Positions 4,170 to 6,896 of a stretch of DNA of 33,602 nucleotides are shown one piece after another. Both the position numbers and the translations under genes were made by a program. The notes under the pieces are model-generated. The model ran no database searches and had not been told where the DNA came from. It saw only the letters and a list, made by a program, of their open reading frames with translations. The stretch lies in the NCBI GenBank assembly GCA_903872065.1, contig CAIQJJ010000772.1, forward strand, positions 1-33,602, in the 5' to 3' direction. The stretch's first letter is position 1. Each line of letters starts with the position of its first letter. This stretch comes from an uncultured Anaerolineales bacterium. Its GTDB lineage: Bacteria; Chloroflexota; Anaerolineae; Anaerolineales; UBA4823.

Positions 4170-5947
4170 GTGAAGCTCTGTTTGCGAATGATGTATTTGC
4201 CAGTTTTGGCCAGCACCTGACCGACCAACTGTTCCGGCACATCCACCAGTGTATGTTTCTCAGCGATCTGAATCTTGCCGATGGTCGAACCGGGGATGTC
4301 AGCATGGTAGGCAATCGCCCCCACCACATCCGCCGGGCGGATGCCGTGTGATTTGCCCATGTTGAGTGTCAGGCGCACCATGCCCGGTTCATGCGAGATA
4401 TTGAAATCTGGGGCGCGTCCTTCCCCGCGATAGGGAGGGCGCATGCGTGGGCTGCCGGCGCGCGGCGCGTGGGGGGCATGCGCATCATGGCCCTCGCCAA
4501 ACTCGCGCCCGGTGTAGCGGGGATTGGGCGAACGCCGGCCAGCGCCGTGATCCTCGCCGCGGCCTTCGCGGTAGCCATCGCCGCGCTCATCGAAGCGGCG
4601 GCCTGCATAGCGGCGCGGCGCTTCCTCAACCACTTCCTGCACGTGGGCAATCGGGCGCTGCTTTTCTTCAGAACGGGCAATCTTCAGCGCCGCAGCGGCG
4701 ACCTCCAGGACATCGTTGCCCTGCGCCACGAGCGTCTCCACAATGGCGCGCTCCTGGCGACAGCGGCCGCGCTGCAGCCAGACGTTGAGCTGATTGACCA
4801 GTTGCGCTTCGCGGCGGGCGAGGATTTCCTCGGCGGTGGGCAGCTTCGCCATGGTCATTTTCTGGCGGGTGAAATATTCGATCTCGCGCAAGCGGCGGCG
4901 CTCAAAGGGCGTCGCCAGCGTAATGGCAATGCCGGTTCGGCCGGCGCGGCCGGTGCGCCCCACACGGTGAACGTAACCTTCGGCGTCATGCGGCAGATCG
5001 TAGTTAAAGACGTGCGTGATCCCCTCGATGTCCAGCCCGCGCGCCGCCACATCCGTCGCCACCAACACCTTAATATTCCCCTGGCGAAAACGGTTAAGCG
5101 TGTGTTCGCGCGCTTCCTGGCTGAGATCGCCATTGAGCGCCTCGGCCGGGAAGCCGCGCGTGGCCAGTTCGTTCGCCAGTTCGCCGGAAGCGGCGCGGGT
5201 GCGCACAAAGATCAAAGCCGAGGTAATTTCTTCCATCTCGAACAGGCGCGTCAGAGCGGCGGTCTTATCAGCCTGGTGAACGAGATAGCAGCGCTGCTCC
5301 AGTTCCGCAACCGTCACCTGTTCGCGCTGAATCGTGACCGACTGCGGCTGGCGCATATACTGGGCCGCCAGGTGGCGGATAGGCGTGGGCAGGGTGGCTG
5401 AGAACAAAGCCGTCTGGCGCTCGGTCGGGGTTGCCGCCAGGATCGCTTCGATATCCTCGATAAAGCCCATGCTGAGCATCTCATCCGCCTCATCCAACAC
5501 CAGGGTGCGAATGCTGCTCAGGTCCAGCAAACCGCGGTTGAGCAGGTCAAGCAAACGCCCCGGCGTGCCAACGACCACATCCACACCGCGTTTCAACTGC
5601 CAGATTTGCTGGCCGTAAGAAGAGCCGCCATAGATGGCGATACACTGCACATTGCCAAACTGGCCGAAAGCCGAAAAAGCCTCCGCCACCTGCAAGGCAA
5701 GTTCGCGGGTGGGGGCCATAATCAAGGCCTGAGGCGCACGGCGCGAGGGTTGTAAATTGTGAAGAATAGGGAGCGCAAAAGCGGCGGTTTTGCCAGTGCC
5801 GGTCTGGGCCTGCCCGATCACATCCAGCCCACTCATCATCAGAGGGATAATCCCCGTCTGGATCGGGGTCGGGTCCACATAGCCTAACGCGGCTACAGCC
5901 TGCACCAGTTCAGGGCGCAGGTTAAAAGAATCAAACTCAGTTGTCAT
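4154..5947 (-). CDS. deaD: DEAD-box ATP-dependent RNA helicase with DbpA-type RNA-binding domain
   Basis: The 597-residue protein carries all helicase motifs in order: Q-motif region DPTPIQ (25-30), Walker A AQTGTGKT (47-54), PTREL (79-83), TPGR (128-131), DEAD (152-155), SAT (183-185), then the second RecA domain ending HRVGRTGRAGR. A long Arg/Gly/Asp-rich linker (about 430-515) leads to a C-terminal DbpA-like RNA-binding domain (GMVRLTLNMGKSHGIRPADV onward). This layout is that of DeaD/CsdA helicases, which unwind structured RNA in ribosome assembly and cold adaptation. ATG at 5947 follows AGGAG about 5 nt upstream. The gene has an unusually structured 290-nt upstream region on the same strand. 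It converges on the DUF234 ATPase. Confidence 0.95.
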   Translation of the reverse strand: MTTEFDSFNLRPELVQAVAALGYVDPTPIQTGIIPLMMSGLDVIGQAQTGTGKTAAFALPILHNLQPSRRAPQALIMAPTRELALQVAEAFSAFGQFGNVQCIAIYGGSSYGQQIWQLKRGVDVVVGTPGRLLDLLNRGLLDLSSIRTLVLDEADEMLSMGFIEDIEAILAATPTERQTALFSATLPTPIRHLAAQYMRQPQSVTIQREQVTVAELEQRCYLVHQADKTAALTRLFEMEEITSALIFVRTRAASGELANELATRGFPAEALNGDLSQEAREHTLNRFRQGNIKVLVATDVAARGLDIEGITHVFNYDLPHDAEGYVHRVGRTGRAGRTGIAITLATPFERRRLREIEYFTRQKMTMAKLPTAEEILARREAQLVNQLNVWLQRGRCRQERAIVETLVAQGNDVLEVAAAALKIARSEEKQRPIAHVQEVVEEAPRRYAGRRFDERGDGYREGRGEDHGAGRRSPNPRYTGREFGEGHDAHAPHAPRAGSPRMRPPYRGEGRAPDFNISHEPGMVRLTLNMGKSHGIRPADVVGAIAYHADIPGSTIGKIQIAEKHTLVDVPEQLVGQVLAKTGKYIIRKQSFTIERA

Positions 5948-6066
5948 CGAAACTCCTGTTCATCCAATAAGTCCCTGTCCGGTGGATCGTACAAGCCCAA
6001 CCCGACCCAAACCAGGGGAAAATGGGACTTTGTGATGACTACAGTACAGAAGTTCTCGCTTGCACC

Positions 6067-6126
6067 GGCGCACCCTCGCGGGTACGCCGTCCCTGCCAGG
6101 GATGGGAAGAATATCCAAACCCATCC
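6067..6126 (-). promoter_or_regulatory. Structured leader of deaD with GNRA-loop hairpin
   Basis: On the minus strand, GGCGTACCC (6088-6080) pairs with GGGTGCGCC (6075-6067) across the tetraloop GCGA: nine pairs including one G-U, closed by a GNRA loop. Upstream in the same transcript, CCC ATCC and GGATGGG (6120-6126 with 6100-6106) form a 7-bp stem, and a small CCCTG/CAGGG hairpin lies between them. RNA helicase genes often have structured leaders that couple expression to cold or helicase activity; that role is inference here. Confidence 0.45.
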
Positions 6127-6138
6127 GCCATTTACAAC

Positions 6139-6163
6139 AAAAAAGCCCGACGCTACACCGGGC
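6139..6163 (-). terminator. Intrinsic terminator inside the deaD upstream region
   Basis: On the minus strand GCCCG (6163-6159) and CGGGC (6149-6145) flank a 9-nt loop and are followed by six T residues (6144-6139). It lies 192 nt upstream of the deaD ATG, pointing toward it. It would end a short RNA starting near 6235 or act as an attenuator of deaD. Confidence 0.65.
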
Positions 6164-6235
6164 AATCATTGAAAACGTCAAAACAATGTCCCAAGGCGAT
6201 ACGCTCCACACGGAGCGATTGCTCTATTCCAGAGC
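6139..6235 (-). ncRNA. Candidate ~97-nt small RNA or attenuated deaD leader
   Basis: A minus-strand extended -10 element TGGTATACT (TATACT at 6247-6242) predicts a start near 6235. The RNA would contain a GCTCT/AGAGC hairpin (6221-6235), a perfect CGCTCC/GGAGCG hairpin with a GTGT loop (6202-6217), and end at the terminator at 6139-6163. No ORF of note lies in it. Readthrough would continue into deaD. The unit matches no RNA family I recognise. Confidence 0.45.
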
Positions 6236-6281
6236 GGCGGGAGTATACCACAAAAATAGATTCGCGGGGGATTTTTTTGAT

Positions 6282-6289
6282 GATACAAT
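6282..6289 (+). promoter_or_regulatory. Extended -10 placing transcription start on the mpg start codon
   Basis: TGATACAAT contains TACAAT at 6284-6289 with a TG one base upstream. A start site seven bases further falls on the A of the ATG at 6297. No Shine-Dalgarno precedes that ATG, so the mRNA is predicted to be leaderless. Confidence 0.5.
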
Positions 6290-6296
6290 CCCTGTC

Positions 6297-6896
6297 ATGC
6301 TGCCGCGCTCGTTTTACGCCCAACCGACTCTCATGGTCGCCCGTCAACTGCTTGGGATGCGCCTGGCGCGCCTGGTCGAGACGCCCAACGGCGTTTTGTC
6401 CATCCACGGGATCATCACCGAAACGGAAGCCTATACCGGCAAGGATGACCTGGCCTGCCATGCCCGCGCCGGACGCACGCCGCGCACCCAGGTGATGTTT
6501 GGCCCGCCCGGCCATGCGTATGTCTATTTCACCTACGGGATGCACTGGTGCTTGAACTTCGTCACCGAAGAAGATGGGGTCGCCGGCGCGGCGCTGATCC
6601 GCGCCATCGAGCCGCTTGACAGCCAGGAATGGATCGCCGCGCGCCGCCCTGGCCGCCCACCCGCGGAATGGTGCAATGGGCCGGCCAAATTATGCCAGGC
6701 CCTGGCCATTGACGGCGCGCTCAACGCCCACGACTTATGCTCCGCCCAATCCAGGCTGTATGTCGAATCTGCGCCCCCAATCCCTGATTCCCGCGTGACG
6801 ATTGGCCCGCGTGTGGGTTTAAATAACACACCGGAGCCGTGGAAGTCCATTCCGTGGCGCTTTCGGGTGTCGCCGCCTGATCCATCCAACGGATAG
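6297..6896 (+). CDS. mpg: DNA-3-methyladenine glycosylase, AAG/MPG type
   Basis: The 199-residue protein matches the alkyladenine DNA glycosylase family, which removes 3-methyladenine, hypoxanthine and related lesions in base excision repair. Seen: LPRSFYAQPTLMVARQLLG at the N-terminus, TETEAY (41-46) with the catalytic glutamate, then YFTYGMHWCLNFV and the GPAKLCQAL motif. The long open frame upstream (from 6060) is not homologous and would run through hairpins. ATG 6297 gives the family's usual length of about 200 and the typical N-terminus. There is no ribosome-binding site; a -10 element ends 7 nt before the ATG, indicating a leaderless transcript. It is divergent from deaD and followed after 57 bp by fabI. 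Confidence 0.93.
   Translation: MLPRSFYAQPTLMVARQLLGMRLARLVETPNGVLSIHGIITETEAYTGKDDLACHARAGRTPRTQVMFGPPGHAYVYFTYGMHWCLNFVTEEDGVAGAALIRAIEPLDSQEWIAARRPGRPPAEWCNGPAKLCQALAIDGALNAHDLCSAQSRLYVESAPPIPDSRVTIGPRVGLNNTPEPWKSIPWRFRVSPPDPSNG

Follow-up and report, generated by a model that had tools for sequence, protein, structure and literature searches.

A conserved leader RNA upstream of deaD in Anaerolineae, a candidate attenuator and translation switch for an RNA helicase gene

Here we describe a structured leader RNA that precedes deaD, the gene of a DEAD-box RNA helicase, on the minus strand of a 33,602-nt stretch of DNA from an uncultured Anaerolineales bacterium (the window; all positions are those of the whole stretch). 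At a rough probability of 0.62, the region is a cis-acting deaD leader that combines a transcription attenuator with a two-state translation switch and is controlled by DeaD; it is probably a self-control device for the helicase. Comparison of relatives establishes the conservation of the element and its association with deaD, together with two predicted pairings, the long-range helix P1 and, in a deeper type of the leader, the pairing of a strand D with the Shine-Dalgarno region.

Helicases of this type unfold RNA in general, and little is known of how their level is set in bacteria. A leader tied almost only to deaD, with two exclusive predicted folds around the translation start, would offer a testable route to a loop in which RNA reports RNA-remodelling activity, and it adds an unlisted RNA family to a large, mostly uncultured class, in a region currently annotated as intergenic. 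Attenuators and start-site-masking leaders are known as kinds; the present family and its tie to the helicase were found neither in Rfam 15 nor in the literature searched, in which coverage of subscription papers was thin and no leader of such kind in Chloroflexota was found.

The leader in the window

The first-pass annotation, made from this sequence alone, had recognised an extended -10 promoter, two hairpins, an intrinsic terminator, a 7-bp stem and a GNRA hairpin upstream of deaD, and all of them lie where it placed them (Table 1). Transcription is expected to start near 6235, just downstream of 6242. The terminator stem consists of 8 pairs, 6 of which are G-C. Strand B begins with GUCAUC (6039-6034), the complement of GAUGAC at the deaD start codon. 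The complementarity between AACUUCUGU and ACAGGAGUU occurs in the window only and is not significant by itself. What the first-pass annotation overlooked were the important pairings: in the window's type, those that strand B makes with strand A (A:B) and with the start codon, and in deeper relatives the one between the Shine-Dalgarno sequence and a strand D.

Table 1. Features of the deaD leader in the window
Feature	Position	Strand	Remarks
Extended -10 promoter TGTGGTATACT	6252-6242	minus	-10 hexamer TATACT 6247-6242; kept in relatives
5' hairpin 1	6235-6221	minus	variable among relatives
5' hairpin 2	6217-6202	minus	variable among relatives
Whole match to model R2, strand A to strand B	6193-6020	minus	65.1 bits, E 5e-11
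Strand A GGGACAUUGUUUUGAC	6192-6177	minus	5' side of long-range helix P1
Intrinsic terminator	6163-6135	minus	stem 6163-6145, U-tract 6144-6139 (TTTTTT), then conserved UUG
7-bp stem	6126-6100	minus	insertion relative to family model
Hairpin H3, GCGA (GNRA) tetraloop	6089-6066	minus	conserved
AACUUCUGU	6054-6046	minus	9-pair complement of ACAGGAGUU at the Shine-Dalgarno site 5959-5951
Strand B GUCAUCACAAAGUCCC	6039-6024	minus	3' side of P1
Translation initiation region	5959-5943	minus	Shine-Dalgarno AGGAG 5957-5953, start codon 5947-5945, codon 2
deaD, DEAD-box RNA helicase with DbpA RNA-binding domain	5947-4154	minus	597 aa

Taken by itself, the window sequence gives a structured leader and nothing further. 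The 294-nt leader folds with z -3.00 (200 dinucleotide shuffles, 2 as good), and terminator-like sites number 3 in the region, where shuffles average 1.6 (sd 1.0). The best downstream partner of strand A in the window is strand B, 6192-6177 with 6039-6024 at -20.0 kcal/mol, a value reached by 11 of 300 shuffles (better than 289 of 300). The start region likewise finds its best partner in strand B (-16.8), with 75 of 300 shuffles as good. In the consensus register of P1, 6 of the 15 pairs are non-standard in the window; the register is shifted by three bases, so that GGGAC/GUCCC, UUGU/ACAA and UGAC/GUCA pair instead. P1 is absent from the minimum-energy fold of the window leader at 37 °C, where single-sequence folding is uninformative because of long inserts such as the 7-bp stem. 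The window copy is thus a diverged member of the family described below, whose pairings are weak evidence when taken without its relatives. These window-only statistics are weak enough to suit a structured 5' UTR of the ordinary sort, in which one hairpin stabilises the mRNA and the terminator is incidental, a reading that is hardly credible in the face of conservation and covariation across many families.

Distribution of the RNA family and its association with deaD

A nucleotide-level search matched 3 of 61 genomes, one of them the window's own; of the other two matches, one covered the promoter stretch alone and the second fell at the beginning of the coding sequence. After these sparse matches, protein and RNA models took over from the nucleotide search. 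The DeaD protein search gave matches in 22 of the 38 genomes of the family, and the leaders of the closest DeaD relatives share a series of elements at nearly equal spacing: the extended -10 TGTGGTATACT, a hairpin of variable sequence, the conserved GGGAAATTGTTTTGAT..TTCC, the terminator GCCCG...CGGGC-TTTTTT followed by TTG, a GNRA-loop hairpin, strand B GGAGTCATCAAAAC and, in many of them, AGGAGTTTTGATGAC at the start. Strand B in these relatives is the reverse complement of both strand A and the start region. A TGnTATACT-like sequence stands at the equivalent position in most of the leaders inspected, and also in distant relatives found with models that exclude the promoter.

The covariance model R1, which spans promoter to terminator, matched 91 of the 301 genomes of the order (93 matches; 68 of 174 among good-quality genomes). 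In 88 of the 93 matches a deaD 52-76% identical to that of the window follows, and at these 88 loci the start codon lies about 140-414 nt after the start of the element. Of the remaining matches, L065 and L087 run off the contig, and L118, L257 and L258 (the latter two second matches) have no deaD after them. Since R1 was built from leaders already seen before deaD, these counts within the order reflect related sequences, and the independent checks of the association are the matches outside the order. At L257 (3999-4110, minus strand), the deaD leader is preceded at a distance of about 1.8 kb by a second promoter, strand A and terminator, decayed-looking and with no clear strand B or deaD behind them. 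At L012 (1280-1488) the terminator stem is enlarged by tandem CCTGGC...GCCAGG repeats, with strands A and B kept.

The covariance model R2 covers strand A to strand B and leaves out the promoter and the 5' hairpin. Across the class it matched 20 of 298 sampled genomes, and outside the order (L216-L223) deaD follows directly in 8 of 8 cases. When 301 genomes sampled across the phylum were scanned, the 17 that matched all belonged to the class. At E < 0.01, R2 gave 14 matches in 80 named DeaD loci, all of them in the leader and on the coding strand, in records that are all named Chloroflexota or taxa within; they include Levilinea saccharolytica, an isolate of the Anaerolineae, and MAGs named Longilinea and Caldilineaceae. 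As a control within the window's family, 10 of 12 loci of the closest DeaD proteins were matched versus 0 of 16 other DEAD-box loci; the two closest-DeaD loci at which the R2 element is absent are L015 and L017. In its 7.49-Mb genome, the window copy, itself part of the R2 alignment, is the sole R2 match (E 1.1e-8).

A third model, R3, matched 45 of 346 genomes of the class, and deaD lies downstream at 30 of the 30 loci fetched (29 by tblastn, L280 by reading). It also matches the window (E 7e-4) and ten leaders of family f12, and the window's type (type I) and the deeper type (type II) therefore form one RNA family. By all of these counts, the DEAD-box control included, the element is nearly confined to deaD. 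A deaD gene, 53% identical, preceded by a recognisable deeper-type leader is present in two MAGs named Desulfobulbus sp. (L146:2308-2479, R3 E 1.6e-4; L147:2327-2509, R3 E 1.8e-3), through transfer of gene and leader to another phylum or through a binning error.

Conserved pairings in the two leader types

Type I was analysed in alignment A2, which holds 76 of 88 leaders; L037, L059, L064, L070, L080, L097, L099, L101, L104, L111, L116 and L122 were omitted because strand B was unclear or the leader was a near duplicate. With this alignment alone as input, RNAalifold predicts P1, hairpin H3 with its GNRA loop, and the stem of the terminator. The named structure pairs in 88.2% of the cells of A2, against 41.3-49.7% for slid versions, and 234 cells show changes on both sides of a pair against 84 (sd 12) in shuffles. 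In P1, strands A and B pair across about 140 nt, and strand B is the best downstream partner of strand A in most leaders. The inner part of P1 pairs in 95.0% of cells, a percentage that is favoured by the choice, for many rows, of strand A's best partner as the 3' end; the tests of own against swapped partners are affected less. In these tests (72 leaders) A:B reaches -19.0 kcal/mol with the own partner and -17.1 with swapped ones (z -8.3), and the control of strand A against the start region C gives z +0.9. Close relatives make up five of the 76 rows and occur in the deeper set too, and the shuffles ignore kinship, so that the test was also run on a set thinned to 21 dissimilar leaders, in which A:B keeps z -4.1 and the pairing of strand B with the start region (B:C) z -3.5.

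The promoter, the terminator stem, its U-tract and the GNRA hairpin are conserved in the leaders. The 5' hairpins differ in sequence and number across species and are missing or very short in some (e.g. L112). A conserved role of the two 5' hairpins was rejected on the ground of this variability, and one of the 7-bp stem because it is an insertion relative to the family model. The conserved structured leader proposed in the first-pass annotation therefore stands for its promoter, terminator and GNRA hairpin, and falls for the two 5' hairpins and the 7-bp stem. Loss of the stems in relatives, or a deaD transcription start downstream of 6139, would speak against such a leader; covariance models find the terminator and GNRA stems kept, and the conserved promoter was computed to lie upstream of 6139. 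Attenuation with readthrough into deaD, which had also been put forward, is very likely given a conserved promoter before a conserved terminator, and would then take place in the cell. RNAalifold predicts no conserved antiterminator in the type I or the deeper-type alignment; by reading, an upstream GGG could pair weakly with the CCC of the terminator stem in some leaders only. A helix P2, formed in type I by the U-tract and an A/G-rich stretch, is 89-95% paired; the U-tract stays U while its P2 partners alternate between A and G, a constancy to be expected if the terminator must be kept.

A stable small RNA, the other product considered in the first-pass annotation, would follow from the terminator. 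That such a terminated product of 100 nt acts in trans, with strand A pairing with other mRNAs, is nevertheless highly improbable. The terminator is conserved, as is strand A (UUGUUUUGA), which would otherwise be unpaired in the terminated product; strand A is, however, accounted for by strand B of the same transcript, with compensatory changes, the 5' hairpins are unconserved, and the 100-nt piece up to the terminator folds with z -0.73, as well as 41 of 200 shuffles.

Pairing of strand B with the start codon is supported less strongly by the comparison. Strand B forms the longest helix covering the AUG in 48 of 82 leaders, where about 9.6 would be expected by length, and in 71 of 72 leaders a pyrimidine (C or T) of strand B faces the G of the AUG, although this base is unpaired within P1 in 58 of 68. 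With own partners B:C reaches -13.1 kcal/mol against -11.7 with swapped ones (z -6.7, 72 leaders). In single-sequence ensembles of these 72 leaders at 37 °C, at least 5 A:B pairs are expected in 45 and at least 4 B:C pairs in 26, with neither in 4. Many f12 leaders have inserts between strand B and the start, and B:C is down to 5-9 pairs, which makes the arm of strand B and the start codon less certain in that group. Inserts of 60-150 nt between strand B and the start codon occur in L061, L062, L063, L066, L073 and L129; the insert ends in f12 leaders are palindromic, e.g. TGTCATTGCGAG...CGCAATGACA, and the inserts look like small mobile repeats tolerated only in the gap between B and the start.

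Deeper-type leaders come from other orders of the class and, within the order, from L064, L107, L111 and L116. They differ from type I in the middle part, where strand D (GGCUCUU...) and the local partner of D, GGGUC/GAGUC (helix P2b), lie inside P2 (CAACAG..CUGUUG). A second complement of strand D is the Shine-Dalgarno region; in L064, for example, GGCUCUUGUUUACG can pair with CGUAAACAGGAGAC. In 31 leaders, D strands and Shine-Dalgarno windows were picked by eye according to position, as a GGCUC-like motif and the last 22-31 nt before the start, and own partners gave -15.7 against -11.2 for swapped ones (z -8.7, 0 of 20000 permutations); with the Shine-Dalgarno core removed, z was -6.4. The hold-out set consisted of ten leaders found later by R3 (10 of 14; L262 and L285 are repeats, L287 has no D and L280 was left out), of which L272 had previously been met as L219, though outside the set of 31. 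It gave -16.1 against -11.9 (z -4.7, 0 of 20000), with little or no gain from the own partner in two of the ten (L281 and L282). RNAalifold, run on 27 leaders, predicts the pairing of D with the Shine-Dalgarno region unaided; it pairs in 89.3% of cells, with both-side changes at 4 of 8 positions. P2b pairs in 90.4% of cells, and both-side changes are absent there.

By this comparison strand D has two exclusive conserved partners, one of which would mask the ribosome site. Exclusive, covarying pairings that would hide the start site are thus established for the deeper type, and carry less weight in the window's type. In the deeper-type alignment A:B pairs in 74% of cells and does not exceed its control. 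A third pairing in this type, E:B, was left out, with 62% of cells paired and both-side changes not in excess. L287, which lies outside the order, lacks D and has strand B and a GATTTTTTGATGACC start, which is the window's type; it may be an intermediate or reflect an independent loss.

Proposed mechanism and comparison with known leaders

The course of events that we infer for the cell, namely attenuation, two states and control by DeaD in a given direction, would be as follows. Transcription would begin just downstream of 6242, and a fraction of the transcripts would be terminated at 6163-6139, the remainder reading through into deaD. In the open state A:B would form P1, enclosing the terminator and GNRA hairpins and leaving the start codon free; in the closed state strand B would lie on the start-codon region and translation would be blocked. 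In the deeper relatives strand D would do the equivalent job, choosing between its own hairpin and the Shine-Dalgarno sequence. As the element is found almost only before deaD, DeaD itself is the most likely controller, with ample helicase activity leading to a closed start and a shortage, e.g. in the cold, to an open one. During transcription the local partner of D would be made first and the longer helix of D with the Shine-Dalgarno sequence later, so that closing of the open form could be accelerated by an unwinding enzyme. Closure accelerated by the helicase would give negative feedback, and deaD would be induced whenever helicase activity ran low, for example in the cold.

A tentative, more specific version treats the leader as a sensor of helicase activity, in which the nascent RNA would initially adopt a metastable open form and DeaD would catalyse its refolding to the closed form that hides the start. 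If this were true, helicase shortage of any cause (cold, an overload of misfolded RNA) would raise helicase synthesis, and the RNA would gauge an enzymatic activity, neither a ligand nor temperature.

Control responsive to the helicase or to temperature, as the first-pass annotation had suggested, is plausible, since the element stands almost only before deaD. Temperature as the sole signal, in the manner of an RNA thermometer or a cold-shock leader whose folds shift without DeaD, is rather unlikely. The gene class is linked to cold elsewhere, as with CrhR, which is induced by cold according to the accessible part of PMC3485376, and warming from 10 to 50 °C lowers the predicted number of A:B pairs in the window from 3.0 to 0.5. 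Melting, however, would hit every duplex, and two exclusive covarying partners exceed the needs of a thermometer; the predicted unpaired fraction of the window's start region is nearly flat, at 0.20-0.24 over 10-60 °C, although such predictions are unreliable for long-range helices.

With the 4227 families of Rfam 15, the window gave no match above the gathering cut-off; in the leader the best was anti-hemB, at 15.6 bits against a cut-off of 49.5. Among 20 relatives no leader match was obtained (one tRNA was found elsewhere in a locus), and two leaders searched in the sensitive mode gave sub-threshold matches or none. That the leader is a riboswitch, or that a ribosomal, cold-shock or other protein reads it instead of DeaD, is very unlikely. 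Like the riboswitch platforms that mask a Shine-Dalgarno sequence, this leader has one strand with two exclusive predicted partners, one of which would expose the ribosome site; its two-state masking and conserved junction resemble such platforms, and a binding site could be formed by its conserved loops and the hairpin with the GNRA loop. Against these readings stands the lack of an Rfam match. A ligand sensor would moreover be expected before several genes of a pathway, whereas nearly all matches lie before deaD. Unlike riboswitches, which have a conserved ligand-binding core before genes of one pathway, the present leader gave no such core or link to a metabolite pathway, and only deaD follows.

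The reading as a DeaD-controlled leader has its closest likeness in the autogenous leaders of ribosomal-protein genes, which are controlled by their own products, such as the L20 leader of Bacillus subtilis as described in the available part of PMC6097659; both are structured, stand before one gene and belong to translation or transcription attenuation. As with those leaders, control by the product is suggested here by the exclusive association. Unlike them, the deaD leader serves an RNA helicase, whose binding to it is putative, and it has a terminator in addition to long-range, mutually exclusive pairings that would mask the start site. In Synechocystis, the gene of the DEAD-box helicase CrhR is expressed in a manner governed by temperature and by CrhR itself, with effects on mRNA and protein half-life measured; the part of that paper available (PMC3485376) contains neither a leader switch nor the term UTR, and for the deaD leader it is the conserved structure that is known, from sequences alone. 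For H. pylori, passages of PMC5874925 describe RhpA-dependent feedback on the gene of RNase J, RhpA being a helicase. The Chloroflexi-1 RNA (RF01698), a structured RNA named from the phylum (PMC2864571), is in Rfam and matches neither the window nor the 20 relatives. Searches through Rfam found no sequence or structure match between the deaD leader and the E. coli csdA/deaD and cspA cold-shock leaders, which are long leaders of cold-linked genes.

The deaD ORF encodes DEAD, Helicase_C, DeaD dimerisation and DbpA RNA-binding domains. Its closest NCBIfam models are CshA, the DeaD/CsdA type and DbpA, with all scores under their cut-offs; the model PRK11634, which we take to be linked to CsdA, is described merely as a DEAD/DEAH helicase. 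Mimicry of 23S rRNA as a bait for the DbpA domain may be mentioned as an idea only. Upstream of deaD lies a divergent methylpurine-DNA glycosylase gene (listed ORF 6060-6896, plus strand), whose true start, judged by domain position, is well inside the listed ORF near 6310, which places the deaD promoter in a gap of well under 100 bp. Within deaD, a 336-aa ORF (4391-5401, plus strand) runs antisense and is probably a by-product of codon use.
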